Of a DNA stretch of 64,000 bases, positions 4,103-51,056 are shown in pieces. Numbering within the stretch: position 1 is the stretch's first letter; every line of letters begins with the position of its first letter. The stretch is from contig WIUZ02000001.1 in the NCBI GenBank assembly GCA_015956445.1, positions 124,001 through 188,000 of the forward strand, in the 5' to 3' direction. The DNA is from Thelephora terrestris (taxonomy: Eukaryota; Basidiomycota; Agaricomycetes; Thelephorales; Thelephoraceae). The notes under the pieces are model-generated. The model was not told the DNA's origin. It was given only the letters and a program-made list of their open reading frames with translations, and searched no databases. The translations under genes and the position numbers were made by a program.

Positions 4103-4104
4103 CC

Positions 4105-12308: not shown

Positions 12309-12680
12309 TGTCAGCATGCTGAATTTTATTCTCATTTTGAACCATTTTCACACCCAACTTTCGCCCACTTTCCTTACCGATACCCCTTTCTATCTTATCC
12401 TTTTCCCTTATCACGACTCACACGTCATCAAAGAACACAGACAAAGGCACAGATGATATTATATGGGTGCACACCAACGAAGACACAAGACGACCAACCG
12501 ACGGAGTTGAATCCACACGGACTCTATGGACAAGGACTAAGGCATACAAACCCTAGTCGTCAAGACCTGGTTTGCCAGTACTCCTCAGCACTGGCAATCT
12601 CCTCCTCTGTCCCCTCCGAGGCACTCTCGACGGTTTCCTCGTCGACCATCTCGACAACCCAAGCTTCCTCCAGACGATGA

Positions 12681-21063: not shown

Positions 21064-21498
21064 AGCTGGCAGGCGAACCTAAAGCGTGATGCGGCAGAAT
21101 ACAAGCCGGGTGACCTAGTGTACCTGTCAATGAGGAACATATCGTTGCCCAAGGGACGCGCTCAGAAGTTGGCACTGAAGTACCTCGGCCCGTTCAAGAT
21201 CTCCAAGGTTCTGAAGGAAGGGGCGACTTACCAGTTGGACCTGAGTGAAGAATTGTTGAAGCAGGGGAGAAACCCTTCGTTTCACGCTTCCTTGCTTAAA
21301 CCACACGTCCCGAGCGATGACAGACGGTTCCCAGGGCGGTTACCCTCTCAGATACCCGGATTTGGTGAAAAGCCCGACGAATCAATCGACGAATCAATTG
21401 TCTCACACCATGGAAAAGGCGTTAGGAGCGAATTTGAGATTCAATGGAAGGCGGGTGACCGAACTTGGGCCCCGTACCTGTCAGGGTTGTGGGCCTGC

Positions 21499-22122
21499 TT
21501 ACTGTTTAGGGGACACTAGAGGGTTAGCGGACGGGTGAGGAGTGTCGGGTCGAACATTGAGGGGAGTTCCGGGTGTAGAGATGAGGGAAGGAGGAATATC
21601 AAGAGCAAGTGGTGACTTGGTTTGATAGGGGTGGACAGCTGAGTGATAGTCTTGACAGAACTGACTTAGTTGTTGAATGAACGGGTCAAAATCTTGGTCG
21701 CTGAGGCGTTCAAAGCTTACGAGGTATTCTAAAACTGAATAAGGTAGTTCAGTTGGGATTTCCCACCACAAGACAATGATAGCGGGGCAATGGGTGTGGA
21801 TGTTAGTAGTAAGGTGAATGCGAGGGTTGGGAAAATAGAAGGCCAGACTTATACTGAAGTAGACGGTCGCTAGGACACTCTCAGTAGTGTCTGAGTTCCA
21901 AAGGAACTGATGATCGGCTCCTAAGAGGAAAGGGGGAGTGGTGACTCCGGAGTTGAGGGCTGCAAAGGGGCGGTAATAAGGGAAATGAGTAAGTAAACCG
22001 GCGGTTCGGTTTACTTGAAGACTTCTGATGAGTTTATACTCCCAGATAGATCTTCTGGCGTCTGGTATGACTGGACGCTGGATGGGACTGGTAGAGGGGA
22101 ATGGGTTAGGGGCGTTGAACAT
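21499..22122 (-). CDS. F2 207-aa protein (sense gene), function unknown
   Basis: A single frame runs from ATG at 22122 (MFNAPNPFPSTSPIQ) to TAA at 21499-21501, only 20 nt from the element end. TATATAAG lies about 150 nt upstream at 22273-22279. Between them AAGTAAGCTGAG...CAAAGCAG looks like a 5'-leader intron. Conserved blocks in four copies are PDARRSIWEYKLIRSLQ, YYRPFAAL, LLGADHQFLW and FERLSDQDFDPFIQ, followed by a Pro-rich tail. There is no signal peptide or catalytic motif I can name. Conservation across copies suggests a translated product; I do not recognise a family. Confidence 0.65.
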   Translation of the reverse strand: MFNAPNPFPSTSPIQRPVIPDARRSIWEYKLIRSLQVNRTAGLLTHFPYYRPFAALNSGVTTPPFLLGADHQFLWNSDTTESVLATVYFSISLAFYFPNPRIHLTTNIHTHCPAIIVLWWEIPTELPYSVLEYLVSFERLSDQDFDPFIQQLSQFCQDYHSAVHPYQTKSPLALDIPPSLISTPGTPLNVRPDTPHPSANPLVSPKQ

Positions 22123-22792
22123 ACACTAGCAGGAGAATTCCTGCTTTGAATGAGTCAGAAAGGAGTAAGGCGTGAGGAAAATTCCTCAGCTTACTTTGTT
22201 TATTGAAACTTGTTGGTAGAGGAGTACAGAAGAGATTGAGAATGGGGAAAGAAAGGAGCGAACACTCTTCCTTATATACCCAGTCCTCTACAGGAGTCAT
22301 TATTGTTACAATGAACCAAACAGGGATCCACATGGTCTGTGTGTACTTTAGGGTAGGTCGAATGAGTCAGGGGGAGGGAACTTAGAGCGACAGATGGTAA
22401 TTACTAATGCGGGAACAATAGAGGTGCGAACTGATGGAAGTATTAGGGGATTTCTTGTGTTTCATGGTAGCAATAGAAGCGTGATGGGGATTTCTCATGA
22501 TCGATGGTGGCAATAGAAGTGGGGCGGGGATTTCTCATGATTGGTGGGGATTTCTCATGATCGGTGGGGATTTCTCATGATCGATGGAGATTTCTCAGGT
22601 TTTGATGGGATCTCGATTGGGGCTTGAGGGTTCATTTGCCCTAATTGGGATTTTAATGAGTGCTGGTTTGTTGTTCTCCCCTTTCGGTTTGTATATAATC
22701 TAGGGGGATTGAGCGTTCTTTCCTCCCATCATCTCTTTTCCTTTCCCACCCACACCACTAAGACTTCCTCTCTCAAACCACCTTTTCGCTCA

Positions 22793-23690
22793 ATGTCTAC
22801 CTACGCTGCCAACAATGCCTTGCTCAATGCTGCGGCTACCCCTTTCGACTTCTCCCCGTCCTTCAAGACGGATGCTCCCTTCAACGTGGAGCAACACCTA
22901 TATGATACCCCCACCAACATCGCTCGTGACAACCAGGTGGCCGTGGACTTCCTAACCGCCCACAATGCTCCCGCCGAGTTCTGGGAGCAAGCTGGGTACG
23001 AAGATCCCAACAGGACTCGGAGGTGGGCTCCTGGGGTCACTCCCTTGCAAGACGCAATGGAGCAGGAGAGGGAGGACAGGATTCTGAAGTTGGAGAAGAG
23101 GATGGACATCATGTATGTGGTCGTCAATAGTCTCAATGACGACTTTTCTCACTTTGCCTTGGAACATTGGAAACCTTTCCAGGAATCTCTCCTCGGGTAC
23201 TTTGGCCATAGATGCCATGGAGCGTACTGTACCGACGCAACTCCTCACTCCCCCATTGTCCCTCCACCACCTTCACAATCAGGGAGTTCCTCTTCCTCAG
23301 TCCCCTCCTTGGAGTCCTGCTCCAATGCGTCAGATGGTGGAGAGGACCCAGAGGAAGAAAAGTCGCAAGAATCCGATGACTCATACTGGTCAACGTTGTC
23401 GTCCCTCCGACAAGTCACGTCAAGTTCAAATGAAGTTGAAGGTGGAAGTAGCGGGTCTCCAGAACCGTTATGGATTCGCATTAGTGAGCGCGGTGTTGAC
23501 GGACGTGAAGCGGGAGATGCATGATAGTTTGTTCCATGATGTGTTGGGATGCAGGGAGTGTTGGCAAGACCCAGTAACCCGGGTGTATTTGTATTGTCCT
23601 CACAGCGTACATAACCCTCATCACTTCGCTCATCGTTGTCTGTTTGCCCAAGACTGTGCTTGTGATGTGGACCCATTTGTTCTTGTTTAG
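22793..23690 (+). CDS. F2 Cys/His-rich coiled-coil protein (antisense gene), likely two exons
   Basis: ATG at 22793 (MSTYAANNALLNAAA) lies about 95 nt after TATATAA at 22692-22698. Removing a 61-nt GT-AG segment (23424-23484) joins the first frame to the downstream frame, giving 278 codons ending at TAG 23688-23690. The N-terminal half has a conserved YDTPTNIARDNQVAVDFL block, followed by a charged coiled coil (EQEREDRILKLEKRMDIM), a Ser/Pro/acidic linker and a C-terminal Cys/His module. The module reads LGCRECWQDP...YCPHSVHNPHHFAHRC...DCACDVDPF, which suggests metal binding. The 61-nt segment has the same length and borders in the other F2 copies but no clear branch point, so a frameshift is an alternative. 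Function is unknown. Confidence 0.6.
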
Positions 23691-24813
23691 TTTTGTAATA
23701 CTTATTAGTCACCTTTGTACTTTTAGCACTACGAATAAGTCTAATGTCTTGAATTATTTGTGCAATTTTAACCACTATGTCATGCGTTCGTGACAGTACC
23801 GGGAAGTAGCTCACCTGATAGCGATGGATCGCTACTGCGAATTGATGGGGGTCGCAGACCCTAATGATTTGCCGGCGGTTTATTCCAAGCGAGGGACTCC
23901 TGACACTTCGGTCAGCTCGGTCCAGGTGATAGACAAGGGATATAAAGGTGGGCGTACTCGTAGGGGTGGTCCTCACCTACCCACAATGACCCACAGAATT
24001 ACCAGAGAAGAATGGGCTGAGTGTGCCACCTTCGAGGTGGCGTACAACGCCTTTGTCTCCAACGGCTTAACCCGTCCTGGTCCAACCCCTCACCATTATC
24101 CCAAGTACCGGAGGCTCATCAACGAGGGGTTCGTGCCTTACCCAATCTACAGCAGCAAACCTCGTGACGCGCCAATCGCCGTGGCACCGAATCTGTCTCC
24201 TCAGGGCACGATCTCTATGCCACAGGAGGCACTTACCTCATTCTTCAACGCCCAGATCTGTATGGTTGAGCTCACGATGAACAACCAGAGCCCGCAGACG
24301 TTGCGAGCGCCGCGCCCTATCCCCTACACACCGAGGCCATTGATCCCTTACCGTGGTAGACAGCCTCACGGTCATAGTTCTCACTACAGAGGCCGTGGCA
24401 GAGAAAGGTTCGGCAGGGCTAGGCCCACGCGTTCCTACTCGAAGTGTTTCACCAAGGCGCCAGAAGAGGATATCATGATGAAGATCTTACCCACCATCAA
24501 TGACAATGTCCTTAGCGACTTCTTTTGCATGGGAACAGACAGCGAAGCGGGTCCCAGTTCCATGGTGATAACAACCCCGACGTTGATCAGTACATCGGCT
24601 GTCGAGATTTTCCCAGAAGTGATTGCTGGACAACTGGCCAGTGAACTGGCTAGCGGCATCAGCAATATTGATATTGAAAGTGTATGCACCGAGGAGGTGG
24701 TAGTCTCTGGGAAGGGAAAGGGCGTTGACCACAATACTGGACCCGAGTAAATTTTTTTTGACTACCCTACAGCCTGTGACTTCAGTAGTGCTTTACCCTA
24801 CTGGGAGGGTGGA

Positions 24814-27807: not shown

Positions 27808-28378
27808 GCGACCTGAAGGGACAGTATCACATCAGTGATCCGATCGATTGGTATGACGCGCGCATGCCTTATGCTGCCGCACGGACCCTGCATCAATCAC
27901 GCTGTATAGTTGTGACACCAATAGAGTAGATTGTCAGGGCCACTCTACCCCAACAACTACCAGTTCACTGAGCCGACTCCGCAGAGTACTCACTAGTCCG
28001 ACTAGCTTGTGAGAGAACGATCACGTCTCTATTCTTCCGGTAGGTTGTCCGAGGTCACTGCAAGTCAGGTCGAAATCCTAAAGAGAAACCCAACCTAAAC
28101 CGTACTTCGTTCGGTTTAACAAACAAGGGTTGATCCCTACAACAGGATTGATGACTCCACCAGTTGATCGACTGGACGCTCGAGGTGTTCTAATATGACT
28201 GCGGGGAGTCTATAGTTACGAGGCGCAGTTGACGCGCAGAGCGGGAGGGAGAGCAGATGGGGATGTCTTGGATCAAACAAGAAACTCTGACTTGGCCTTA
28301 ACTGCAACTGGGCTGAGAAGGGCAGAGGATTTCCTGAGGTAACAAAACTAAGGTACTACGATACAGCCACAGTTGCTA

Positions 28379-28407
28379 CTTATACTAAAGGAGTGGCCAT
28401 GACGTCA
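28379..28407 (-). promoter_or_regulatory. F1c sense promoter: TGACGTCA and TATAAG
   Basis: On the minus strand the CRE-like palindrome TGACGTCA (28400-28407) precedes GTATAAG (28379-28385) by about 15 nt. The layout is identical in F1a and F1b. In F1d the palindrome is altered to TGACATCA (near 42532-42539). Confidence 0.6.
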
Positions 28408-29312
28408 ATACCCTAATATACCCTTATCAAGTCCAGAACAAAGGGAGATAAGGAGTGTGTGAACGCTAAGTAAGGGAAGCGAACAAAGGTGACGCGTGGG
28501 AGAATAAAGGACAAAGGGCCTTACTAGCGTGTGAAGGATTGCATAAAAGATAAGAAGTGTCCGCATGAAACATAGGGGTAAAGATAACACTAGTCCTAAA
28601 GGAAAAAGGGGCATGGGGTCATGAAAGTTCGTACCTGGGGATCACACCCAAGGGTCAGGTGGAAGCCTCCCATTGCTTCGTGCAATTTTCGAGCGGCTCC
28701 GGGATAAGAGACCATTCAACATCCCTTGTTGTCTGTAGGCGGTAACAGCATCACGGACTAGTGGCAACCTCAACGTAGGTCCAAACATGAGGAGCGCAGG
28801 CCTAGACTCATGGGACATGAGGGATTACAGATTCGCCGGCGTTTCACGCTAACGGCTACTTCCACATTCGCTTGGCTAACCAAAAGGAGTCTAAGGCACT
28901 CCTTCCGAATAACGGCGATTCCTTCCTCCGGTTAGGAGACTGTGATGTGACTGTCCACGTGTGTGATCAGGGTCCAGGGTTGATTGTAATTGTAAAGTCA
29001 TGAGGGGTCGTAAAAGGGGTTTGTGATGTCATGAAGGGGTCATCAGGGTCTTGAGACCTATTTTTAGTGCGCGCGCGTTCTGGGCGTTCCGGAACGAAGT
29101 TCTTCCAAGGCCGTCCCGCGGGCCGAGGTGTCAGCTTGATGTAGTAAGCCAACGATGATGGTACAGGGGCGGAAGTTGATGTGACCCGGACCAATGAGGT
29201 TCGTTGAGGTAGGTCACGTGAAGGATCACCAATCTAGGCTATAAGAAGGACGTCTTCTTGGAGCCATCCTTGATCAGCAACACCAGCAACTTCCCCATCA
29301 TCTTACCACAAC

Positions 29313-31049
29313 ATGTCTTTCCCCAACAACCATACCTACAAAGTTGCCAACGGCATCTCTACCATCTCTCGTATTGACCGCCGTGCCGCCAACCGCAAGA
29401 CCTACGCCTGTGCGGCGGGGACTCCTTATACCACGGATGACCAGGTATGGGGGAGACCTAGAGCTTTGTTCGCTAGCACTAACGCCTTCCTCTAGGTAGA
29501 GGAACGTTCTTTCGGGCGTTGATGTCCAGCTAACGGCTTCTAGATCTTGGAGGTCGTCACGGAAGTGGACGCCAAACGTCTCAGGGAGACGATCCCTCAC
29601 TTGCTGGGATTGACCTGGGACGACGAGCTCTGGGTCCGTACCATAATCGCCGAGAAGGTAGCCTTCCAGATGAGGGGTAGGTTCGGGGAGCTGGAGCATC
29701 CGATCAAGAAGGAGCTCTGGTACACCCTGCAGAGGGGGATCTACGATCAGGACCTATTGGAGCACGGAGCTACCGTTCCTCGGGCCGTCCGCCATGCTAC
29801 CGCTTCCACTAGCCTTTTGTGGTCGCTCGTTCGAGAAGGAGAAAGCCGGGTAGGTTTTCTGTCTGAATATTCGAGTATGACTCTCGACTAATCAGACTGC
29901 CTAGGTGGAACAATTGGAGCGGGAGGTAAAGGAAGCGAAGGCAGACGTCCTTCGTCTGTCCGCAGAGGGTCTTCAAATGAAGGAGACCTTGGCAGCCTTC
30001 CAGCAGGGGACGAACGAGGCGTTGGAGGCAATGGTCGCCAACCATCAGGAGTTGATCGCAGGGTTGAAGGTTCGGGACAACAACATTAAGGGGGCGTTGG
30101 CCAGAAGGGATGAAAAGGTCGTCCTTCAGCCTTTGCAGTTTGTGCAATAACTGAAAGACCTTCTAGACCGAAGAACTCGAGAACGTGGTGGCCGTGTTGA
30201 CAGCGCAGGTCGAGTCCTTGCAGGACAAGACCTGCAACTGCAAAGCGGGTCCCAAATTGGTTGGTGAGGGAACAGCCGATGTTCCATTCGAGTTGGAGTA
30301 CGCTGACAAGGTGGTACTCCCATCTCCTAACCCGTCGTCCTATGCGACGCCTCCGATCGAGAATGTGGTTCCCGTGCCAACTCCAGGTCCGGCTTCTACT
30401 TTGGCCGCTTCCGACAAGGAGAACTGTGGGTGCTGTGTCTTGCAGCCGATCCAACGGTTGGTGAAGATCGAGGATGAGGTCATGGAGGTTGACCGAGCTG
30501 AAGATGCTCCGAGGGTCGCCGAGGTATGTCCGGTGACTAAGGGGCAACGTTGCAAACGCTCTCGACGCCGTCCTGCTCATCGTATGACCACATCGGCTAA
30601 TCCTTACCCTCGACCAGTCGAGTCGGATGGTGACGAATCTGGTCGAGGTGAGGAGCGAGGGTTCCGATATCGGGTCCACCGTCCTTACCGACAGGTCGAG
30701 TCCGAGATCCAACTCCGACACCAGCTTCGCCTCGCAAGGCAGGATCCCACCCAGGGGTCCGATGAGGGAGACGGAGGGTCGCTCGCCGACTACGTCGACA
30801 GTACTGTCGAGCAGTCACCCGGTGATGGAGATGTGGGACCAGGTGTTCAGCAGTTCGGTGACATCTGGGAGGCTGATCGGTCCACTCGAAGGCATCTCTT
30901 CCTATCGGCTTGAACTGGTCGTTCAGCTGAGTGCCGAAGACGGTGACGCCATGTTTGGGGAGGTCCTAGCAAGGAGGGGCCAGCACTACGATCTCCGGGA
31001 TGGACAGTTGATGACCTTCAGGCCTGCCGTAGATAGAGTCGACTTTTGA
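29313..31049 (+). CDS. F1 antisense gene: five-exon coiled-coil/acidic protein, apparently intact
   Basis: Exons 29313-29444, 29544-29849, 29905-30117, 30167-30523 and 30618-31049 join in phase 0 throughout and give 479 aa. TATAAG at 29240-29245 is the likely promoter. Exon 1 starts MSFPNNHTYKVANG. Exon 2 has TWDDELWVRTIIAEKV, MRGRFGELEHPIKKELWYTL and PRAVRHAT. Exon 3 is a continuous coiled coil (LEREVKEAKADVLRLSAEGL onward). Exon 4 has PFELEYADKVVLPSPNPSSY, a Pro-rich stretch and VKIEDEVMEVDRAEDAPRV. Exon 5 is Ser/Thr-rich and ends AVDRVDF. The exon 4 donor GTATGT is strong; the exon 3 donor GTCGTC is weaker. No enzymatic motif or retroviral domain is recognised. Homologous genes in F3 and F4 share this order. 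A structural or DNA/RNA-associated role is only a guess. Confidence 0.7.
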
Positions 31050-31235
31050 GGACGTTGTATAAGCATTAGTATAGCCATGTTGTTCCGTATTGCCGTGAAT
31101 GTATGCGCGTTTTGTGTGTTTTGAATGATTGGTGTGAAGGATAAGGAGTGTAAAGCATTCAAACATAAGAAGTGGTAAGAAGAGTTCGAAGAAAGAGCGT
31201 GTTATAAAAAGTTTAAAAATACCATGTTCCTGACA

Positions 31236-37291: not shown

Positions 37292-38003
37292 TTTGTTCCT
37301 TTTGTGGAGAACACATCACCTATCCCGGTTCCAGAACCAAGCCCACCACCAACAACTCTTTCAGTGTTGTCCTTGGAGGAGCCTGAGAAGGAGAATGTTC
37401 AGCAGGTGACCAAGCTGGTCCTTCTTGTGTTTCTCCCAGGAAATGTGAGCAAGGAAGGCCAAGGTAGACCAATGAGTTTATTAATGTTGATACTTACTCT
37501 TTCGTCTTCCACTCTTTTAGTCATAACGACCAGATCGCAGACCAAGTCTTTCAAAGTCGTTACCTCTCCTTTCAACAAGTTGATAGCTGTGCCCTGTCTC
37601 TCCCTTCCATCTTCAGCCATCAATGTCCATTCCTGGAACCCAACAACATCCTTCTCAATCCTTTCAATTGCCTCTTGACAAGTATCAATACGCTTGTTAA
37701 CATGAGTGACCTCATCCATCAACATAACACCAAGGTTACTTGTATGAGTAACAGCAGCATCTAAAATGGACAAGTGGGTCTCATTGGACTCAACAACAAA
37801 GTCCACCCCACAAGAGAGGAGTCCTTGAGTATAAGGATTCACTGGGGGCAAGTGGTGGAGTTCCGGTCCAGAACATTGCAAGTTCATTGCAAGGAAATGG
37901 ACGATGTACCTGTCACGAACACGTGACATGTTGAGGAAAATCACACAGGTCATTCAAGAAATTTGTATCATTTGTAGTAATAGTACAAAACAAAATAAAT
38001 GAA

Positions 38004-38823
38004 CTAAACAAGGAGGAAGGGATTTACTTTGCAAGCACACACCTGACCCAAAGGACAATAATGAGAGAAACGGAAAGGGTTATGAACACTCTGCGGGCAG
38101 TAAGAATACTCTCTGGATACTGGATCCACCCAGCAGTCCTGGCACCCCAGCCCATCGAGCTGCAACCCATCATGCATCTCTCTCCTCACTTCTTCTAGCC
38201 CTTTACTCACTAGATCAAACCCATACTTGTCCTGAAGACTTGCTACCTCCAACTTCAGCTGCATACAAACTTGGCGAGCCTTGTTCAACAGGCAACACTG
38301 CTGTCCAGAACGAGTCATCGGACTCTTGCAACTCTTCTTTGCGGTTCTCTCCACTATCTGAAGCACTGGAGCAGAACTCCAAGGAGGGGATTGAGGGAGA
38401 GGAATGCCCTGATCCTGCTGGAGTCAGAGGGAGGACTGGGGGCTCATCTGTGGAGATGCATAGCCTGCAGACGCAGTGCTTTTGGACAGCTTCCTGAAAG
38501 GGTTTCCAATGTTTGTCACAGAAATGCGCAAAGTCTTCATTAAAACTTTCAAACATAATGTACATGAGGCCCATCTGCTTTTCCAACCTAATAATCCTCT
38601 CCTCCCTGTCGTGCTCCATGGTGTCAAGGAGGGGGATGAGATGTCTGGCCTGATCCCAAACTCGGAAAGGGGCCTCATGCTGACAGAGGAAGTCCTGGGC
38701 AACCTTGTTGTCATGAGCGATGGCGGCAGGGGTGTCATACAAATGATTGTCAATGTCGTAGGTGGTGGTGACCTCAAAAGGGGAGGCAGCGACAAAGGGA
38801 GTAGTGTCGACATTAAGGGACAT
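38004..38823 (-). CDS. F2b Cys/His-rich coiled-coil protein, likely two exons
   Basis: ATG at 38823 (MSLNVDTTPFVAASPFEV) leads through YDTPAAIAHDNKVAQDFL, a coiled coil (DREERIIRLEKQMGLMYIM) and a Ser/acidic linker. A 61-nt GT-AG segment (GTTTGT...GATCTAG, about 38268-38208) would join it to the C-terminal frame ending at 38004. That frame holds LGCQDCWVDPVSREYSYC, FSHYCPLGQVCACKVNPF. It has the same architecture as the F2a gene with about one-third of residues changed and no internal stop seen, suggesting past selection. Function is unknown. Confidence 0.55.
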
Positions 38824-39923
38824 AGTAATGATGGTTTGTAAGAAGGGAGGTGGTTGAGTATTTGTGGAGAGGAGAAAAGACGATGGGGGGGGAAGGCCAA
38901 GAGACCCCACGGACTATATACATCCAAAACAATGGGACACCAAAAGGGATATGGCAAAAAACCATTATTCATTGATATCCCAAAAAAGGATAAACAAACC
39001 CTCAGCCCCAATTGCGATCCCATCAAATCATGAGAAATCCCCATTTTTCCTCTATTGCTACCATGAAACCTGAGAAACCCCATTGTACTCCCATTGACTT
39101 ATCTCCTATTGTTCCCCTATTTGTATATACCATTGGTCATCCTAAGTCCTACTTCTCTGGCTCATTCAGCCTGCCCTAAAGTACGCACAGACCATGTTGA
39201 CTCTTGTTTGACTCATTGTATGATTACTAAGCATGTAGAGGATTGGGTATATAAGGGAAAACATTTTCTTCTTTCTCTCCCCATCCTCAACCTCTTTTGT
39301 ACTCTCCTACAAACTGCTCAATAAGAAAAGTAATCTGAGGAATCCTCCTCATGCCTTACTATTTAGCTGGCTCATTCAAGCAGGAATTCTCCTGCAAGTG
39401 TATGTTCAGTGCACCAAACCCTTTCCCTTCCAACAGCCCCATTCAACACCCCGTCATCCCGGATGCCCAGAGATCTATCTGGGAGTATAAACTCATCAGA
39501 AGTCTCCAAGTTAATAGGACTAGTGGCCTATCAGCCCATCATCCCTATTATCGTCCTTTTGCTGCCCTCAATGCCAGAGTCATCTCTTCACTGTTCTTAC
39601 TTGGTGCAGATCACCAATTCTTGTGGAAGTCCAATTTCACTGATAGTGTGTTAGCCACCGTCTATTTTAGTATTAGCCCGAACTTTTACTTCCCCGCCCC
39701 ACGTATCCATTTAATCATTAATGTTCACACTCATTGTCCTGCCATCATTGTGTCAGGGCCACTCTACCCCAACAACTATCAGTGCACTGAGCCAACTCCG
39801 CAGAGTACTCACTAGTCCAACTAGTTGTGAGAGGATGGTCACACCTTTGTTCTTCCGTTAGGTTGTCCAAAGTCACTGCAAGTCAGGTCAAAATCCTAAA
39901 GAGTGTCAGGGTTGTGGGCCTGC

Positions 39924-40547
39924 TTACTGTTTGTGGGGCGCTAGAGGATTAGCGGAGGGGTGAGGGGTATCGAGTCTAGTTTTGAAGGGGGTTCCGGGCG
40001 TGGAAACGAGGGGAGGAGGGATATCGAGAGAGAGAGGTGACTCTGTCTGATAAGGGTGCACGGGTGAGTGGTAGTCTTGGCAGAACTGATTGAGTTGCTG
40101 CACGAAAGGTTCGAAGTCCTGGTTGCTAAGGCGTTCGAAGTTGACGAGATATTCTATAACCGAATAAGGTAATTCAGTTGGGATCTCCCACCAAAGAACG
40201 ATGATAGCAGGAGAGTGGGTATGGATGTTAGTGGTGAGATGAACCCGTGGGGAGGGAAAGTAAAAGGCCGGACTGATACTGAAGTAGACAGTCGCAAGGA
40301 CGCTCTCAGTAAGATCTGAATTCCAAAGGAATTGATGATCGGCTCCTAGGAGAAAAGGGGGAGTAGTGACTCCGGCGTCGAGAGCTGCAAAGGGGCGGTA
40401 GTAAGGAAAATGGGTGAGTAAGCCGGTGGTTCGGTTTACTTGAAGACTTCTGATGAGTTTATACTCCCAGATAGATCTCCTAGCGTCAGGGACAATTGGT
40501 CGCTGAACTGGACTTGTAGAGGGGAAGGGGTTGGGGGCACTGAACAT
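39924..40547 (-). CDS. F2c 207-aa protein (sense gene)
   Basis: ATG at 40547 (MFSAPNPFPSTSPVQRP); stop at 39924-39926, 20 nt inside the element end. It is the same length and blocks as the F2a gene (WEYKLIRSLQVNRT, YYRPFAAL, LLGADHQFLWNSD, VHPYQTESPLSLDIPP). Many differences from F2a are conservative, hinting at selection for protein. The TATATAAG box lies about 150 nt upstream, and an apparent leader intron ends at the AG just before the ATG region. Function is unknown. Confidence 0.65.
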   Translation of the reverse strand: MFSAPNPFPSTSPVQRPIVPDARRSIWEYKLIRSLQVNRTTGLLTHFPYYRPFAALDAGVTTPPFLLGADHQFLWNSDLTESVLATVYFSISPAFYFPSPRVHLTTNIHTHSPAIIVLWWEIPTELPYSVIEYLVNFERLSNQDFEPFVQQLNQFCQDYHSPVHPYQTESPLSLDIPPPLVSTPGTPFKTRLDTPHPSANPLAPHKQ

Positions 40548-41201
40548 ACACTGGCAGGAGGATTCCTGCTGAAATGAGTCAGAAAGGGTAAGACGTGAGG
40601 AGAATTCCTCAGCTTACTTGTATTCAGGTTGTGGGTAGAGGAGTACAGAAGAGATTGAGAATGGGGAAAAGAAAGGAGCGAACGCTCTTCCTTATATACC
40701 CAATCCTCTACAGGAGTCATTACTTTACAACGAGTCAAACAGGAATCAACATGGTCTGTGCGTAGTTTAGGGTAGGTTGGACGAGTCAGGGGAGTGGGAC
40801 TTTAGAGCGACAAATAACGAAATGAAATAGGAGAACAATAGTAAAGGAGTCATTAGAAGCATAATGGGGATTTCTTACGATCGATGGTGGTAATAGAAGA
40901 CTGATGGGGATTTCTCATGATCGGTGGGGATTTATCTCGTTTCACGGTGGCAGTAGAGGACGAATGGGGATTTCCCATGATCGATGGGGATTTCTCTGAA
41001 TTGATGGGATCGCGATTGGGGTTGAGGGTTCGTTTACCCTAATGGGGACGTTAATGGATAATGGGTTTTTGTTTTCCCCTTTTGATTTTCTTTGAGTCAG
41101 GATGTATTTAAGTCAGGGGGATTAATGATCGTTCCCCTCATCGTCTCTTTTTCACTCCCACCCAACACCACTACCACCTTCTCCAAATATCCACTACTAC
41201 T

Positions 41202-42105
41202 ATGTCTTCTTTCGTTGCCAACAACGCCGTGCTCAATGCTGCCGCCACCCCCTTCACCCCGTCCTTCGAGACGGATGCTCCCTACGACGTGGAGCAACAT
41301 TTGTATGACTCCCCTGCCAACATTGCCCATGACAACCAGGTTGCCATTAACTTCCTCACCGCTCACAACGCCCCCGCCGAGTTCTGGGAACAGGCTGGTT
41401 ATGAGGACCCCAGGCTTTCCGGGCCTCGTGTTCAAGCTGCTCACCCTGGAGCCGTTCTTTTGTTAGACGCCATGGAGAGGGAACGAGAGGATAGGATTGC
41501 GAAGTTGGAGAAGCGTGTGGACCTCATGTACGTCATCATGAACAGTTTGAATGATGACTTCTCTCACTTTGCTTTGGAACATTGGGGACCTTTCCAGGCA
41601 TCTCTCTTCCGATATTTCGGACACCAATGTCACGGGGCTTATTGCACCGACCCCCCTTGCAAGTCCCCAGTCGTCCCTTCGCCACCGCCAGGATCAGGGT
41701 GTTCCTCTCCCTCCATCCCCTCCCTGGAGTCCTGCCCCAGTTCATCAGATGGTGGAGAGGTCCCAGAGGAAGAAGAACCGCAAGAGTCCGATGACTCGTT
41801 CTGGTCAACGTTGTCGTCCCTCCGACAAGTCACGTCAGGTTCGGATGAAGTTGAAGGTGGAAGTGGCGGGTCTCCAAGACCGCTATGGGTTCGCCTTAGT
41901 GAGCGCAGCCTTGTCGGACGTGAAGCGGGAGATGCATGATAGTCTATATCATGATGTGTTGGGGTGTAGGGAGTGTTGGCAAGATCCGGTGACGCGAGCG
42001 TACTCGTATTGTCCTGAGAGCGTACATAATCCTCACCACTTCGCTCATCGTTGCCCGTTTGCTCAGGACTGTGCGTGTGACGTAGATCCGTTTGTTCTTG
42101 TCTGA
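41202..42105 (+). CDS. F2c Cys/His-rich coiled-coil protein, likely two exons
   Basis: ATG at 41202 (MSSFVANNAVLNAAA). A 61-nt GT-AG segment at 41839-41899 joins the frames, giving 843 nt (280 aa) ending at 42105. Blocks: YDSPANIAHDNQVAINFL, coiled coil EREREDRIAKLEKRVDLM, HFALEHWGPFQ, an acidic linker (EEEEPQESDD), then LGCRECWQDPVTRAYSYCPE, HHFAHRCPFAQDCACDVDPF. The regular Cys/His spacing suggests a zinc-binding fold. TATTTAA lies about 95 nt upstream. If the segment is not spliced, the first frame ends at 41939. No family is recognised. Confidence 0.6.
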
Positions 42106-43097
42106 ATTTGTAGTTCTTGCTAGTCGCCTTTGTACTATTATTACTGCGAATAAGACCAATGTCTTGAATTACTTGTGTGATCTTGGCTACTATGTCACGC
42201 GTTCGTGACAAAGAGAAACCCAACCTAAACCGTGCTTCGCTTGGTTTATCCAACAAGGGTTTATCCCTACAACAGGATTGATGACTCCACCAGGTGATCG
42301 ACTGGACGCTCGAGATATTCTATGTGATGAACACTGGGGTTCTATAGTTACGAGGCGCAGTTGACGCACAGAACAGGAGGGAGAGCAGATGGTGATGTCT
42401 TGTGTTCAAACAGAAAACTCTGACTTGGCCTTAACTGCAACTGAGCTGAGAAGGGCAGAGGATTTCCTGAGGTAAAAAAACTAAGGTACTACGATACAGC
42501 CACAGTTGCTGCTTATACTAATGGAGTGGCCATGACATCAGTAACACTAATATACCCTTATCAAGATATAACAAAGGGAGATAAGGAGTGTGAGAACACT
42601 AAGTAAGGGAAGCAAACAAGTATGACGCATGGTGTGATGATTTCGCCGTTTACCCCCTTTCATTTCCACTATTTAACGCCTCATCACCACTAAGTTAGTT
42701 GGTGCCCTGCCCTAAACACGGCGGTAAACTGTTTATTATGCAGTATGCCCTATGCTTAACGACTCAAAGTCCAATACGTGGAACGTGCTACTAGTCAAAA
42801 TACCCCAGAAGACCCGAGGTATAATACGTGAACATGTACCGGCGGACCTTCATATGAAGATCCCCCCTACCTGGCCCTCCGTTGCCCCTGGACGACTAGT
42901 AGATATTCAGGCTACCGACAACAAGGGATGTATTAATAAGCGTCGCGCGCTGACCTCTCGCAGAAGTCAACCGGCTTATTAATCTGACCCTTGGATTGGA
43001 CTTATGAAAACCATTATGCTTTACGACTCATGGATCACACGCAATAAACAAAATAGAAGATTGATTCCTTGGAAGCCAAATAGTACAAAAGAGTTAT

Positions 43098-44359
43098 TTA
43101 ATCAATATCTCTGCGAATCCTCTGTACTACTTCCAAGGCCGATCTCACCAACTCCTCATTCAACCAGTTCTGCTCCCGGATCTCGTTCGGGTCTACATCC
43201 GACAAGTCATCATAATCTGGAAGCTCCGTATCAGAGTTTGGTTCACTATCGGGAACGAACTCGGCGTACGGGTCATACTCCAGGGCAGGCCATTGACGAC
43301 GACTACCCCAAGGAGTAGACACGAACTCAGGACGAGGAGTGTCCCGACGGACGACTCCTACGTTCTGGTAGAATTCGTCGCTCCCAATCTCAATGACCTC
43401 ATCATCAACGGGAACCAACCTGTTCTCGTGACGGACCAACAGACGAGCGGGCGGCGACTCAGCCCGATTAGGGATGATCGGCGATCCGGCCCGATACGGA
43501 ACCTCCGGCTCCTCTTCTTCGACTTGGACCTCCGGCTCGTTGCACCTCCTCTGGAGATCCCGGACTTCTCCGGTCAACTCGGAAACACGACGAGTAAGGC
43601 GAACCTAACAGGAACAGGGTTAGAAGATGACAACTATCTTCGATCCCAGTCCCAGTACCTTATCGTCTTCCAATTCCCTGGTCTTCGCAACGAGACTCCG
43701 GACCAAGTCCTTCAACGTGATCACCTCTCCCTGAAAGAAAGTTTGAGTTAGAAAGGTCAATTACTCCTGACCCAAACTTTCTTACCTTCAACCTGTCGAT
43801 CGCCATACCATGCTGCTCTTGTTCATCTTCAATCTTCAAGATGCCCTCATGACATCCAAGGAACTCCTTCTCCAGCTTCTCAATCTCTTCTCGACAACCA
43901 TCAACTCGCTCATTAACATGAGCAATCTCATCCATCAACATGGACCCAACGTTACCTGTATGGATAACGCTGGCCTCCAACACGAAGTTGAAGGTCTCAT
44001 TGGTCTCCGTGACGAACTCGACACCCCTGTTAAGGAGTTCGGTCGCATAGGGGTTCGTCTCGATACGCGCCAACTTGCGCCGAGACACCCTTCGAGAAGC
44101 CTGGATGAAATCCCTGAAACCTAAAGCGGAACGTCAGAAGACATGCTAAATATGTCGACCGGCATCCCGAACCTAAGTCGGTAAAACCCTCATTAGGGTT
44201 GGCGGTGGCGGTCCGGTCCATAATGTTTCCCAAAGTGGGATAAGGGCGGGAAGCATCCCGACGAGCATGAGAGAAGCAGTCAATGTTAAAGTTATTCTCC
44301 TGAACAGGAGAGTAGGAAGAAGAGCGGCGGGTGGAAACACGAGTAGAGGCACGAGGCAT
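43098..44359 (-). CDS. F3 antisense gene: four-exon coiled-coil/acidic protein, apparently intact
   Basis: Exons on the minus strand are 44359-44173, 44120-43786, 43730-43659 and 43604-43098. They join in frame (phase 1, then 0, 0) to 366 aa, with donors GTTCGG, GTAAGA, GTACTG and acceptors TTTAG, TTCAG, GTTAG. The N-terminus MPRASTRVSTRRSSSY is basic. Exon 2 begins with GFRDFIQASRRVSRRK and continues as a long coiled coil (LMDEIAHVNERVDGCREEIE). Exon 4 continues with VSELTGEVRDLQRRC, an acidic segment, LVPVDDEVIEIGSDEFYQ and a C-terminus with EIREQNWLNEELVRSALEVV. The V-x-DDEVIEI motif corresponds to VKIEDEVMEV of F1. Function is unknown; low-complexity charge suggests protein or nucleic-acid interaction rather than catalysis. 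Confidence 0.7.
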
Positions 44360-44790
44360 GTTGGCTGTGTATAACAAAGGTGGGTTTGTTGAGAGACCCA
44401 GTCATCCAACCCCCTTTGGTTATATACCAAACGCCACGCCCCTTCCACGACTCAGGAGTTGAGTCATCATTTCTATTGTTTACTGCACATGACCCACATG
44501 ACATCATATGCCCCTATTTCTTAGTCATATGCTCCTCTTTTGCCATTGGCTGTTAGTCAGTCATACCCACATTCCCTCCGAACATTCCCAGGCTACGTCA
44601 TGCTTTGTAACTGCTTTGTAATGCTCTCAAATTGCTATTGGCCGCCACACTTTCATTTATCAGCTGATAATTTGTAGCATTAGTCACCACGTAACGCACA
44701 GACCATGCAGTGCTGCGCACGGACCATGTTTGTCTGTGTTTGTATCTTTAGGGTAGTTACATGTCACTGTCACGTCACAAATCTAAGTAG

Positions 44791-44798
44791 TATATATA
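44791..44798 (+). promoter_or_regulatory. F3b sense TATA box
   Basis: TATATATA lies 256 nt before the CCTGACA end, and the equivalent is conserved in F3a (near 54448). It faces away from the antisense gene, whose own promoter must lie between 44360 and 44790. Confidence 0.55.
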
Positions 44799-45463
44799 CT
44801 CAGAGTAGTTTAGCCTGTACTCCTTAGATTTGTTATCATCAGACTCTCCGTGACCTCTACTGCTGTGTGCTTAGAGCAAGAGTGCCTGAAGACCCTTGTC
44901 TCCTTCTTTCTCCTCTTCTCCAATCTAGTCTGTGAAGAGACTTCCGATATCCCTGGGTTTGCAACAGGGTTATAACTGTGTGTTTGACCCCTGCGTGTGA
45001 TAGGTTTGGATAGCAAGAGTGCTATTGAACTGTAGAGGTCGCGTCGGCCTGACACATGGGAGAATAAAGGACAAAGGGCCTTACTAGCGTGTGAAGAAAT
45101 GCATAAGAGATAACAATAGTCTGCATGAAACATAGGGGTAAAGATAACACTAGTCCTAAAAGAAAAGGGGCATGGGGTCATAAAAGTTCATACCTGGGGA
45201 TCACACCCAAGGGTCAGGTGGGAACCTCGCTTTACTTCGGAGATTCAAGCGGATTCGTGAGTGGAACCATACAGCATCCCTTGTTGTCGGTAGGTGGTAA
45301 CAGCATCACGGACTAGTGGCAGCCTCAATGGTGTCCGAGCATGGGGAGGTCAGGCCTAGACCCATGGGACATGAGGGATTACATGCTTCGCTGGCGTTTC
45401 ACACTAATGGTTACTTCCACATTCACTTGACTAACCAGAAGGATCCTAAGGCGATTCTTCTGA

Positions 45464-46642
45464 CACTGGGGACAAACCCCAGTTTCCCGGCCTGGGACAT
45501 CGTAAATACATTGTAAGGGAATGGAAAATGTGCCTGGCAATGACCCACCTGGTACATCATAAATACATTCAAAATTTCCAGGCCAATTTCCTTAGGGTGT
45601 TGCCAGCACAGGAAATGCTCAGTACATTCATGGTGTTCCTGGTCATGTGATCTCAGTGTTCCCATTAGGTAATCCATGGGAACATCATGAATTTTCCCAA
45701 AGAAATACCCATGATGTCCCCGAGTGGCTCATTGAAAGAAAACCCTGAGTGAACCCACAGTTTCCCAGGTCATGTGACCTTGATGTCCTGATTAGGTAAT
45801 CTGAGGGTAAACCATGAATTTTCCCAAAGAAAGTAACCATGGTGTTCCTGAGTGGCTCATTCACAGTGTTCTTTCCAGTGTTCCCAGTCAGTAAAATTCA
45901 AATTGAGCCTTAACAGTGCACCATAAGTGTACCAGTGTGGTATATCCTGAAAGTACCAAGGCCTTCGACCATGATGTACCAAAATTCAGCAAACCATCAG
46001 GAAACTGTGGGAACACTGAAAGGAAACTGGGGACACTGGGAACATCATAAACTCATTCAAAATGTTCCCAATTTCTCAGTTTCCTTTCAGTGTTCCCACA
46101 GTTTCCTGATGGTTTGCTGAATTTTGGTACATCATGGTCGAAGGCCTTGGTACTTTCAGGATATACCACACTGGTACACTTATGGTGCACTGTTAAGGCT
46201 CAATTTGAATTTTACTGACTGGGAACACTGGAAAGAACACTGTGAATGAGCCACTCAGGAACACCATGGTTACTTTCTTTGGGAAAATTCATGGTTTACC
46301 CTCAGATTACCTAATCAGGACATCAAGGTCACATGACCTGGGAAACTGTGGGTTCACTCAGGGTTTTCTTTCAATGAGCCACTCGGGGACATCATGGGTA
46401 TTTCTTTGGGAAAATTCATGATGTTCCCATGGATTACCTAATGGGAACACTGAGATCACATGACCAGGAACACCATGAATGTACTGAGCATTTCCTGTGC
46501 TGGCAACACCCTAAGGAAATTGGCCTGGAAATTTTGAATGTATTTATGATGTACCAGGTGGGTCATTGCCAGGCACATTTTCCATTCCCTTACAATGTAT
46601 TTACGATGTCCCAGGCCGGGAAACTGGGGTTTGTCCCCAGTG
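45464..46642. mobile_element. M7: near-perfect palindromic CACTG MITE, TSD TGA
   Basis: CACTGGGGACAAACCCCAG starts at 45464, and the mirror end CTGGGGTTTGTCCCCAGTG stops at 46642. TGA flanks both sides (45461-45463, 46643-46645). The arms are exact in coordinate mirror about 46053, with a very short loop, so the 1179-bp unit would form one hairpin. The body differs from M1-M4 but shares the CACTGGGG start. It has no genes of its own. Confidence 0.92.
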
Positions 46643-48126
46643 TGAGTAGCGGTGATTCCTTTCTTTGGTTGGAAGACTGTGATGTGACTGTCCACGTGTG
46701 TGATCAGGGTCCAGGGTTGGTCGTTATAGTGATGTCATAAATGAATCATCAGGGTCATAAAGGGGTTGTCAAGGTCATGAGACCTATTTTTAGTGCACAC
46801 GTATTCTAGGCGTTCCGGAACGATGTTCTTCCAAGGCCGTCCCACGGGCTGAGGCGTCAGCTTGATGTAGTAAGCCAACAATGATGTGACCTGGACCAAT
46901 GAAGTGCATCGAGGTAGCTCACGTGAAGGATCACCGATCTAGGCTATAAGAAGGATGTCTTCTTGGAGCCATCCTTGATCAGCAACACCAGCAACTTTCC
47001 CATCATCTTACCATCATGTCTTTTTCCAACAACCATACCTACCAAGTCGCCAATGGGATCTCCACCATCTCCCGTATCGACCGTTGTGCCGCCACTTGCA
47101 AGACCTATGCCTGTGAGGCAGGAGTTCCATATAGCTCCGATGAACAGGTTGGCTTGTTTTCTCAGAGTTTAACTCAAGGAACTTGCCTGACATCTTTTTG
47201 GATCTTGGAGGTCGTCAAGAAGGTGGACACCGAACATCTCAGGGAGACGATTCCTCATCTCATGTCATTGACCTGGGATGACGAGCTCTGGGTCCGTTCC
47301 ATAATCACCGAGAAGGTGATCCACCAAATGAGGGGTCGTTTTGGGAAGTTGGAACATCCCATCAAGAAGGAGTTGTGGTACACCCTAGTATGGGGGATCT
47401 ACGATCAAGATCCGTTGGAACACAGGGCCACTGTTCCTCGAGCAGTCCACCATGCCACTATGTCCACCACCCTGCTCTGGTCGCTGGTGTGAGAAGGAGA
47501 TAGCAAGGTGGGTTGCTAGGTTGTTCCAAGTATGACCCTCGTTAACCATAGCTTCCGTAGGTCGACCGTTTGGAACGTGAGGTGAAGGAGGCGAAGACAG
47601 ACGTGCTTTGTGTCTCTGCAGAGTGCATCGGATTGAAGGAGACCATGGCCAAGTTCCAGGCAAAGATGAATGAGGCGTTGGAGGCGATGGTTGCTAACCA
47701 TTGTGAGCTGGTTGCAGGTTTGAGCGTTCGGGATGACAATGTGAAGGGCGCCTTGGATAGGCGGGATGATCGGATGGACAGGCATTCAAAGAAGATTGGG
47801 GAGGAGAGTGTCAAGGTAGACGTCTTTCAGCGTTTGCAATTGTGAAATGTTAAAGGATGTCTTTCTCTAGGTCAATGAACTCAAGGACAAGGTTGCTGTT
47901 CTGACTGCAATGATTGAGTCCCTGCAGGAAAAGATTTGTCACTGCAACAAGTCACTGCGTTTGGTGGGCCAGGGTTCAGCCAATGTTCCCTTCGAGTTGG
48001 AGTACGCCGATGAGGTGGTACTCCCATCTCCCAATCCGTTGTCCTACGCCACACCTCTGGTGGAGAACAAGGCTCCTATCCCAACTCCGGCTCTGGCTTC
48101 TACTTTGGCCAATTCCGACAAGGAGA

Positions 48127-48757
48127 CACTGGGGACAAGGGGGTACTTACCCAGTGGGTACATTGTGAGTTTGTTGTGGGTTTTGAAACCATTCGCCCAG
48201 TCGTTACCCACCAGGTACTTTTTGGGTACTTTTTGAAAGATACCCATCAATTCGCCCACATTTTACCCACTGGGTATTTTTTGAGCGAAACCCCTGGGTT
48301 CTTTCACAATTTAATTTCCAATGTGCCCATCACAAACTTGAGCCATTTGTTGAGAGTTCTTTCACAAAATACCCACCGATCTGATCAAAATGTACCCAAT
48401 GGGTTTTTTTCAAAGAACTCACAAAGAACTAACAGTGTGGCTCAGTTTAACCACAAACTCTCAAAGAACCCATTGAGTATCTGGTTGAGTACATTGTGAT
48501 CAGATCAGTGGGTGCTTTATGAAAGAACTCTTGATGAGTGGCTCGGGTTTGTGATGGGCACATTGGAAAGTAAATTGTGAAAGAACCCAGGGGTTTCGCT
48601 CAAAAAATACCCAGTGGGTAAAATGTGGGCGAATTGATGGGTATCTTTCAAAAAGTACCCAAAAAGTACCTGGTGGGTAACGACTGGGCGAATGGTTTCA
48701 AAACCCACAACAAACTCACAATGTACCCACTGGGTAAGTACCCCCTTGCCCCCAGTG
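48127..48757. mobile_element. M8: palindromic CACTG MITE, TSD AGA
   Basis: It runs from CACTGGGGACAAGGGGG to CCCCCTTGCCCCCAGTG, flanked by AGA at 48124-48126 and 48758-48760. The 631-bp arms mirror exactly about 48442. It is inserted in exon 4 of the F1d gene. M5 is a fragment of the same subfamily. Confidence 0.92.
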
Positions 48758-48891
48758 AGAACTGTGGGCGTTGTCCAATGCAGCTGATTGGTCAGTCGGT
48801 GCCAATTGAAGAGATGGTTTTTGACAGGGCTGAAGATGCGCCGAGGGTGATTGAGGTATGTCCGGCTCGAACTGGGCAGCGTTGTACACGC

Positions 48892-49701
48892 TGTAGTGCC
48901 TCCAGTTCTGGGGATGTGGGATTCCGGTGTTCGCTGTTCTCAGTCCTCATTCCTCCTCTTCACTTTTCCTCTCCTTCGGAACCTCCTCCTCTTCGGAACT
49001 TCTTCCTCTTCGCTGGAGCTTCCTATTTGCCAGAGCTTCCTCTTTGCGAACCTCCCCTTTGCCGGAGCTTCCTCTTCGCTGGAACTTCCCCTTCTTCGCG
49101 ATCTCCTCTTCCTCGGGATCTCCTCTTCACTGGAACTTCCTCTTCTCAATGCTTTCCTCTTTGCTTAGTTCCCCCCCTTTATGATGACTTTCCCCTTTCA
49201 TGACGACTTTCCCCTTTTCTCCTCTTCCCCTATGACTTCGCCATTGCATCATAGGTCCCTATTTCGCAGTTTTCCTCCTTTCTTCTCTGGATCCTTCTCA
49301 GAGCAGACCTTAGTATATATATCCTGTGCTAGCTACTCTGGAGATCATTGTGCTCCATCCTATTGAAGTCCAGTCAGCCATGTTCCCCTCCTCCTAGTCT
49401 GAAGCTTTGCTCTAGTTCCCTTGTCGTGCCCAGTGTCTCCTTGCTTTCCTCAGTGTCTTCTCCTAGTGTTCTCTGCTTCCCTCGTCGAATCTTCCCTTTG
49501 GAACCCTCACGGACTCTCTGTTCTTCTTGCTTTGTCTCTGGCTCTCTTCTGGTCTCTCCACCTTCGCGCTTTCTTTGCAACTGTTCCCCAGTCACTGCTA
49601 GGAGTTTTTGACACTGTACAACCTAGGACCCACCTTCACAGGAACTCTCTGGGCTCTGATCCTCTGTCCTCACGGAGGTTCCCCAGAAGAACCCCTGTTC
49701 A
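48892..49701 (+). mobile_element. S3: solo LTR (810 bp), TSD ACGC
   Basis: TGTAGTGCC...CCCTGTTCA is flanked by ACGC at 48888-48891 and 49702-49705. It contains the TATATATAT box near 49312-49322 as in S1. It lies within intron 4 of the F1d gene. Confidence 0.88.
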
Positions 49702-49811
49702 ACGCTCCAGGTTTAGTCGAGTGGGCCGGATGGCAGCATCCAATCCTTACACTCTTCCAGCTGCGTTGGATGGTGACAAGTCTGGTGGAGGTGTCAAGTT
49801 TGAAGGCCTGC

Positions 49812-50435
49812 TTACTGTTTGTGGGGCGCTAGAGGATTAGCGGGGTAGGGAGTGTCTGGGTGAGTTTTTAGGGAAGGGGTTCCTGGAGTGGAGACAAGAA
49901 GAGGGGGAATATCAAGAGTGAGTGGTGACTCGGATTGATAAGGATGAATGGGAGAGTTGTAGTCTTGGCAGAATTCAACTAGGTGTTGAATGAAGGGTTT
50001 GAAGTCTTGATCGCTGAGCCGTTCGAAGCTGCTAAGATATTCTATGACAGTGAAAGGTAAGTCAGTTGGTATGTCCCACCAGAGAACAATAATAGCTGGG
50101 CAGTGAGTGTGAACGTTGGTCGTGAGGTGAATTTTAGGGGTGGGAAAATAGAAGGCTGGGCTGATACTGAAGTAGGCAGTGGCTAGCACGCTCTCAGTGA
50201 AATCTAATTTCCAGAGGAACTGATGATCAGCTCCAAGTAGGAATGGGGGAGTAGTTACTCCGGCGTCGAGGGTGGCAAAAGGTCGGTAATATGGGTGATG
50301 AGCTAATAGACCAGTGGTTCTATTGAGCTGTAAACTCCTGACGAGTTTGTATTCCCAGATGGAACGTCGAGCGTCGGGGATAACCAGACATTGGAGGGGA
50401 CTAGTAGAAGGGAAGGGGTTAGGAGTGCTGAACAT
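49812..50435 (-). CDS. F2d 207-aa protein (sense gene)
   Basis: ATG at 50435 (MFSTPNPFPSTSPLQ); stop at 49812-49814, again about 20 nt inside the element end. It is the same length as the F2a and F2c genes despite about a quarter of residues differing. WEYKLVRSLQLNRT, YYRPFATL, LLGADHQFLW and FERLSDQDFKPFIQ are kept. Length conservation in an older copy, while the partner gene carries stops, is notable. Confidence 0.6.
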   Translation of the reverse strand: MFSTPNPFPSTSPLQCLVIPDARRSIWEYKLVRSLQLNRTTGLLAHHPYYRPFATLDAGVTTPPFLLGADHQFLWKLDFTESVLATAYFSISPAFYFPTPKIHLTTNVHTHCPAIIVLWWDIPTDLPFTVIEYLSSFERLSDQDFKPFIQHLVEFCQDYNSPIHPYQSESPLTLDIPPLLVSTPGTPSLKTHPDTPYPANPLAPHKQ

Positions 50436-51056
50436 ACACTGGCAGGAGAATTCCTGCTTGAATGAGTCAGATAAGTAGTAAGGCGTGAGGAGAATTCCTC
50501 AGCTTACTTTGTTTATTGAGCAGTTGGTAGGAGAGTACAGAAGAGATTGAGAATGGGGAAAAGAAAGGAGCGAACGCTCTTCCTTATATACCCAATCCTT
50601 TACATGCTTGGTAATCGTACAATGAGTCAAACGAGGATCAACATGGTCTGTGTGTAGTTTAGGGCAGGGCGAATGAGTCAGAGAAGTAGGACTTAGGATG
50701 ACTGATGATGGGATATGGAATAGGGGAATAATAAGGAATGAGTCAATAGGAATACAAATGGGGATTTCTCGTGTTTCATGGTAGCAGTAGAAGGACTACG
50801 GGGATTTCCCATGATCGATGGGGATTTCTCATGATCGGTGGGGATTTCCCAGAGTTGATGGGATCGTGATTTGGGCTGAGGGTTTGTTTATCCTTTTTAG
50901 GATAACAATGAATAATGGTTGGTTGTCATTACCCTTTTGGGCGTCCCATTGATCTGGATATATTTAATCTGTGGGGTTCCTTGGTCTTTTCCCCTCATCG
51001 TCTCTTTTCCACTCCCACCAATCTACAACAACCTCCTTCTCACAACCTTTGACACT

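Follow-up and report, generated by a model that had tools for sequence, protein, structure and literature searches.

An antisense, intron-bearing gene inside the giant long terminal repeats of a chromovirus in Thelephora terrestris

A 64,000-nucleotide stretch of the Thelephora terrestris genome (bases 124001-188000 of contig WIUZ02000001.1, here C1; hereafter the window) contains units of three kinds, F1, F2 and F3, which have TGT...CCTGACA ends and are flanked by 5-bp target site duplications (TSDs). The F1 unit carries a multi-exon gene, which raises the question of whether such units are DNA transposons with a gene of their own, or long terminal repeats (LTRs) of a retroelement to which the gene lies antisense. 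The original prediction, made from the window sequence, took them for giant solo LTRs with an antisense gene. Here the units were followed through the 40.6-Mb genome (60 contigs, C1 etc.), where F1 pairs are found to enclose the internal region of a Ty3/Gypsy chromovirus.

F1 units and the elements that contain them

In the window, 11 TGTCA/TGACA pairs with matching 5-mers were found among 1353 tested, against approximately 1.3 expected by chance, although some of the 11 are spurious. All seven proposed combinations of ends and TSD (TAGAT, CATTG, GTACC, AAGAG, GGAGG, a split GTACC copy and CATGG) are present. Genome-wide, the first 20 nt of F1 occur at 578 places with up to two mismatches, and a reversed-pattern control occurs at 1. 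Flanks were compared among the listed ends (100 of 281 5' ends and 100 of 318 3' ends, with 97 and 100 of these used for pairing). Same-strand end pairs 1.5-4.2 kb apart number 41, and 34 of them have identical 5-bp flanks, compared with 14 of 59 at longer spacing. Among the seven short pairs with unequal flanks, one is off by a single base, three are spaced 3.98-4.15 kb, with ends that may stem from different copies, and the remaining three have unit length. One of the latter led to a full-length element. The other two, units of full LTR length on C8 (197645-200970 and 351733-355032), have no junction match and are perhaps products of inter-copy recombination.

The F units were at first taken for DNA transposons, with TSDs of their own and a gene reading forward from TGTCAGG. 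This hypothesis was dropped when a polypurine flank led to full-length elements: F1 copies on C4 and C1 have a common 3' flank which, read on the opposite strand, is a polypurine tract (PPT) directly before the unit. The element at C4:70589-82281 has LTRs of 3307 bp that are 99.97% identical (TSD ATCAC), and that at C1:546891-559509 has LTRs of 3301 bp that are 99.94% identical (TSD TAATC). The F1 unit of the window matches each LTR of both elements at 91.8-92.7% identity over its whole length.

The internal region of the C1 element contains a long open gag frame (681 aa; zinc knuckle above the cut-off, Retrotrans_gag just below it) and a 1322-aa pol frame with aspartyl protease, reverse transcriptase (RT), RNase H, integrase, SH3_Tf2-1 and a chromodomain (PF00385, 1.3e-16) at the C-terminus of the integrase. 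Gag, together with the pol order protease-RT-RNase H-integrase, places the element in Ty3/Gypsy. In both elements read whole, pol stops 23 bp short of the 3' LTR and runs counter to the LTR gene. Because the unit ends are near-palindromic, the window alone could not tell sense from antisense; the pol strand of the C1 and C4 elements bears out the antisense orientation that had been proposed.

Patterns spanning the LTR/internal junction (30 nt) and the PPT/LTR junction (29 nt) each match the genome eight times, at agreeing places, and the F1 pol protein is found at the same eight places with 98-100% identity. The genome-wide search for paired units around a priming site, pol and PPT, suggested with the original prediction, thus finds them at eight places, and F1 is indeed a giant LTR. 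Since 578 LTR ends stand against 8 internal regions, most F1 copies are solo LTRs; approximately 560 of the 578 ends are in copies without an internal region, and LTR ends outnumber internal regions about 70 to 1. Both full-length copies that were dated are young, whereas the F1 copies compared diverge from one another by several per cent, which would fit fast loss of internal regions through LTR-LTR recombination.

Two further arrangements were noted. At C23:1032741-1048095, two F1 internal regions lie in tandem and, judging by their spacing, apparently have the middle LTR in common, as is expected from recombination between elements. At C4:68508-82450, the full-length F1 element is flanked by F2 ends 13.9 kb apart with the common TSD GCCAA, and it probably sits inside an F2 copy.

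The start of the F1 internal region has no TGG-type tRNA site, and has a complement of the LTR instead. Twelve nucleotides from the third internal base are complementary to an LTR stretch located 420 nt before the LTR end. In F4, a sister family described below, an 11-nt complement of different sequence lies 445 nt before the LTR end. Single-base LTR shuffles reached the complement length in 2 of 500 trials for F1 and 1 of 500 for F4. Both families may be self-primed as in Tf1, a mechanism described in passages of two published papers (PMC2864245, PMC5006619); this would set the F1 U3/R border near window position 28350 and the length of U3 at approximately 2.9 kb.

Structure and conservation of the antisense gene

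The F1 gene comprises five exons and four introns and encodes 494 aa (Table 1), with exons set by the codon periodicity of variation among 17 copies; the most variable codon position shifts frame at the introns. The multi-exon structure proposed for F1 therefore stands. Two other models of the tail, unspliced to 30913 or with an intron at ~30524, were rejected, since codon periodicity favours the intron at 30843-30891. Annotated relatives have differing gene models for the tail, and some use other splice sites for intron 1.

No known domain was found in the protein by domain scan. Weak coiled-coil matches cover approximately residues 131-242, and a sequence search of solved structures returned two coiled-coil-like matches (E 0.013-0.015). 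The N-terminal region of the protein is conserved and its tail is charged, with the putative coiled coil as a further feature. When the best 8000 candidates were scored, 71 of the 72 clusters of related proteins were annotated T. terrestris genes. These 71 clusters (P0001-P0071; 257 members, perhaps duplicated between sources) are "hypothetical proteins", and some are fragments or fusions. Since they match the LTR gene, gene counts for T. terrestris include retroelement genes, with dozens of them annotated as hypothetical proteins.

Selection was measured in 17 copies, with each full-length element represented by one LTR (19 sequences had been found). The mutation rate per base is 0.026, 0.015 and 0.124 at codon positions 1, 2 and 3, and the mean ratio of nonsynonymous to synonymous polymorphism (pN/pS) is 0.103 (136 pairs). 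Between the C1 and C4 full-length elements, the gene differs by 35 synonymous and 5 nonsynonymous changes. The core exons are free of stops and the splice sites of introns 1-3 are kept in 15 of the 17 copies, all of them chosen by similarity. Variation is 0.066 in the introns and 0.056 in the 3' noncoding part (19-sequence count). The ratio of nonsynonymous to synonymous variants (N/S) is 0.28 for shared and 1.19 for private variants (P = 5e-15), with 3.18 expected without selection. Constraint is thus strongest on variants present in more than one copy, as is expected if selection acts in the replicating element lineage.

A homologous gene occupies the same place in F4. Among the best 40 of 162 candidates, three further pol places were found at 64% identity to F1 pol, one of them with a stop. 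The copy on C12, the only one read on both sides, has LTRs of 2934 bp that are 99.93% identical (TSD GTTTT). Little DNA similarity remains between F1 and F4 LTRs, but a homologue of the F1 gene can be read in antisense in the F4 LTR (tblastn 3e-19). In the alignment to the F1 protein, the F4 sequence is interrupted where F1 has intron 2: the inserted stretch holds an in-frame stop and has GTGAGT and TTGTAG at its borders, so that an intron is likely at this position in F4 as well.

These results show, with high confidence, that the F1 unit serves a Ty3/Gypsy chromovirus as its LTR and carries a complete five-exon antisense gene under purifying selection, of which a sister family keeps a homologue in the same place and orientation. 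Several observations weigh against this reading. The C4 element keeps its pol frame and is without ~0.93 kb of gag, so gag is not whole everywhere, and one of the eight F1 pols has a stop. Since similarity to the exon region was the criterion for choosing the 17 copies, they are not a random sample, and among them private variants are also partly constrained. The 5' noncoding part varies as little as codon position 1 (0.024, 248 countable sites), and the coding claim therefore rests on three-base periodicity rather than on low variation. A function of the protein is only weakly suggested, by the coiled-coil matches. Lastly, among the listed ends, neither a full-length F2 or F3 copy nor an internal region common to such copies was found.

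F2 and F3 units

The F2 and F3 units resemble F1 in their ends and TSDs. The expectation that every F unit would hold a multi-exon gene held for F1 and F3; the F2 gene, in the two window copies read, consists of a single exon of 243-245 aa. F2 and F1 proteins match by profile (hhalign probability 97.5%, E 8.6e-12, 101 columns, from low-diversity alignments), and pN/pS in F2 is 0.09-0.40 (15 pairs, 6 copies). Profile comparison gave no homology of the F3 gene with that of F1 or F2. The F3 exons match annotated T. terrestris and metagenomic relatives, and F2 proteins have relatives in metagenomes.

End pairs were examined in four lists of 100 F2 and F3 ends (of 173, 222, 123 and 238), from which paired rows are a subset chosen by position. 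Among these, identical 5-bp flanks occur in 37 of 44 F2 pairs and 28 of 29 F3 pairs. No paired copy around an internal region appeared among the listed ends, and so the solo-LTR reading, which the paired copies bear out for F1, is for F2 and F3 still inferred.

It is an even question whether F2 and F3 are LTRs of autonomous elements of their own today, or whether they are left as solo units, either because the master elements have died out or because F1- or F4-type machinery mobilizes them in trans. By eye over the listed ends, and by script over a subset of them, none is joined to a shared internal region, and the pol search revealed no third close family beyond F1 and F4 (best 40 of 162 candidates), both of which favour the second reading. 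However, with part of the ends listed, a few full-length copies could be missed; three of the seven F2 pairs with unequal flanks are near unit length; and a contig of 12,065 bp, given as the longest contig of each of two F2-type proteins (P0077 and P0079), has the size of a complete element. This contig may hold an F2-type element of full length from a relative.

Several candidates for full-length F2 or F3 elements were rejected. A purine-rich flank common to C6:158899 and C12:2831108 was considered as an F2 PPT, but there F2 adjoins another F2 fragment and no internal region. Units of 8.5 kb on C8 and C22 (TSD CAACC) were considered as full-length F3, but stretches of 501 and 401 bases from the C22 unit are without F3 sequence, and one of them has a frame that looks Copia-like; this unit is most likely a split copy. 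Apparent self-priming flanks of F2 and F3 were read as insertions into other copies. By eye, F2 and F3 flanks at C11:93445, C7:936365, C23:2542306, C23:1329858 and other places resemble F1 sequence around its putative antisense promoter and first exon, and the F families seem to insert into each other.

Table 1 Features of the F1, F2 and F3 units, in window positions.
Feature	Position	Strand	Basis
F1, one solo LTR, 3304 bp	27932..31235	- (LTR sense = minus)	ends, TSD, match to full-length LTRs
F1 TSD TAGAT	27927-27931 and 31236-31240		flanks of 27932..31235
F1 U3 (putative border)	about 31235-28351	-
F1 R-U5 (putative border)	about 28350-27932	-
12-nt segment complementary to internal start of C4 full-length element (putative self-priming)	28339..28350	-
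TATA-like motif, putative sense (gag-pol) promoter, ~25-35 nt before putative R start	28375..28384	-	sequence
TATA-like motif upstream of antisense start codon, putative promoter	29237..29249	+	sequence
Exon 1 of the F1 antisense gene, with start codon	29313..29444	+
Exon 2 of the F1 gene	29544..29849	+
Exon 3 of the F1 gene, coiled coil	29905..30117	+
Exon 4 of the F1 gene; donor GT in 16/17 copies	30167..30842	+
Exon 5 of the F1 gene, including stop; acceptor AG in 17/17 copies	30892..31049	+
F1 introns	29445-29543, 29850-29904, 30118-30166, 30843-30891	+
Second F1 copy, TSD CATTG, split by nested insertions	39751..52615	-	ends + TSD
F2 unit, TSD GTACC, LTR-like (putative LTR)	21479..23795	-	ends + TSD
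F2 single-exon gene, 243 aa, purifying selection	22793..23521	+
F2 unit, TSD AAGAG, inserted in F1	39904..42210	-	ends + TSD
F2 single-exon gene of 39904-42210 copy, 245 aa	41202..41936	+
F2-type unit, TSD GGAGG	49792..52018	-	ends + TSD
F2-type unit, reversed, TSD GTACC, split by nested insertions	37911..52915	+	ends + TSD
F3 unit, TSD CATGG, LTR-like (putative LTR)	42633..45054	+	ends + TSD
F3 multi-exon gene, ~44359-44171, 44118-43786, 43727-43656, 43601-43101 (borders approximate)	43101..44359	-	matches to relatives

Precedents, possible roles and neighbouring elements

Genes are known both inside retroviral U3 regions and antisense to retroelements. MMTV sag and the 3' genes of foamy viruses have coding sequence inside or reaching into U3, as F1 does, but in sense orientation and with no antisense introns. 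HTLV-1 HBZ is, like the F1 gene, a spliced antisense gene; its promoter lies in the 3' LTR, whereas its coding sequence is mostly outside the LTR, and it is a retroviral gene whose protein is unrelated to that of F1. Tf1, Tf2 and self-primed chromoviruses resemble F1 in the SH3_Tf2-1 domain and in an LTR complement just after the LTR, but Tf1/Tf2 LTRs are a few hundred bp long and geneless, in contrast to the 3.3-kb gene-bearing LTR of F1. In Botrytis cinerea, Boty/BcGypsy1 has an antisense gene, brtn, reportedly described by Zhao et al. in 2011.

Boty/BcGypsy1 is described as a Gypsy chromodomain element with antisense brtn (PMC8365987, PMC7264820, PMC4227169; brtn also in PMC5987419), and so resembles F1 in being a fungal element of this type with an added gene antisense to gag-pol. 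Passages of two papers place the antisense additional genes of Grande, RIRE2, Retand, PvRetro13 and Boty between pol and the 3' LTR (PMC7264820, PMC11963269), and report that the antisense additional open reading frames (aORFs) Grande gene23, that of RIRE2 and Retand TRP28 are kept in most copies, with an own promoter for Grande gene23; one also mentions the HTLV-1 HBZ antisense promoter (PMC7264820). Antisense ORFs thus have precedents, as the original prediction had noted. Compared by description, the plant aORFs are antisense accessory genes like that of F1, but they lie between pol and the 3' LTR. The F1 gene departs from the brtn/Grande/Retand type in being located inside the LTR, with two genes per element, one per solo LTR, and four introns, whereas passages on brtn put it between pol and the 3' LTR (PMC7264820). 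The word "intron" is absent from the main text of PMC7264820 and PMC11963269. Among the titles and abstract openings listed from the open-licence literature searched, none describes a conserved, intron-bearing antisense gene inside an LTR. Passages of a genome paper that includes T. terrestris report its transposable element content and say nothing of such a gene (PMC7550596).

The anatomy of F1 suggests how such a gene may persist. Its introns survive reverse transcription because antisense introns cannot be spliced from genomic RNA, so that an intron-bearing protein gene can live stably inside an LTR, an arrangement workable only in antisense. The location in U3 also means that each insertion has two copies of the gene, of which each solo LTR keeps one. 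The gene would be transcribed from its own TATA promoter (29237), divergent from the sense promoter (28375) located ~0.85 kb away. Its protein may act in trans for the element, e.g. by regulating how the element is transcribed or silenced. Solo LTRs, usually viewed as inert scars or as promoters, can still hold the gene intact and could go on supplying the protein. A trans-acting regulator serving the element is the most likely of the roles considered, although we propose it tentatively. The LTR itself could be a selected gene vehicle, in which the gene is doubled with each insertion, survives LTR-LTR recombination and acts in trans from solo LTRs in their hundreds; the element would then retain its influence after losing the internal region, and this loss may be part of its strategy. 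This more speculative possibility would extend at least to F1, F4 and, by profile homology, F2. With hundreds of copies and several families available for comparison, the role of an antisense accessory gene is here directly testable.

It is less likely that the gene encodes a self-limiting factor, which would control copy number in trans, be made mostly by solo LTRs and presumably be comparable to p22 of yeast Ty1. The ratio of approximately 70 LTR ends to 1 internal region, the retention of stop-free core exons in 15 of the 17 similarity-chosen copies and the youth of both full-length copies with compared LTRs agree with such control, but the strong purifying selection on shared variants is more easily explained by a helper function. 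A host-derived gene that now serves the fungus, with solo LTRs kept as a host gene family, is improbable. Nearly all related clusters (71 of 72) belong to the annotated genes of T. terrestris, relatives of the F2 and F3 proteins occur in metagenomes, and private variants are not fully relaxed, all of which a host gene would accommodate; however, constraint is far stronger on shared than on private variants (N/S 0.28 against 1.19), and among the best 8000 candidates scored, no relative stood out as a single-copy host gene. A last reading would make the F units DNA transposons, autonomous or not, whose short terminal inverted repeats are TGTCAGG/CCTGACA and whose gene is a transposase or a passenger. 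It can be practically dismissed and is refuted for F1. The ends do form an inverted repeat of 7 bp, and single units with 5-bp TSDs make up most of the copies sampled, but scans of the F1 and F2 proteins and of one F3 exon revealed no transposase domain, and F1 units form direct pairs that enclose a chromovirus pol at eight places, with LTR and PPT junctions; the two LTR pairs compared are nearly identical.

Other elements are found in the window. An LTR element at 2982-8343, inside an F1 copy, has 1121-bp LTRs that are 99.9% identical, with ends TGTCGCGACG...AAGTTCA. By eye, its 853-aa frame is gag/protease-like and no RT-like frame was noticed, no domain search having been made; it is perhaps a non-autonomous, gag-only element. 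Self-complementary inverted-repeat units of 0.6-1.2 kb lie at 12680-13634, 45457-46649, 48127-48757, 52916-53649 and 55358-56425, and several recur in the window. Two related 3.1-kb units, at 17932-21063 and 60422-63562, are each 94-97% self-complementary, and tandem repeats are present near 63.4-63.8 kb.

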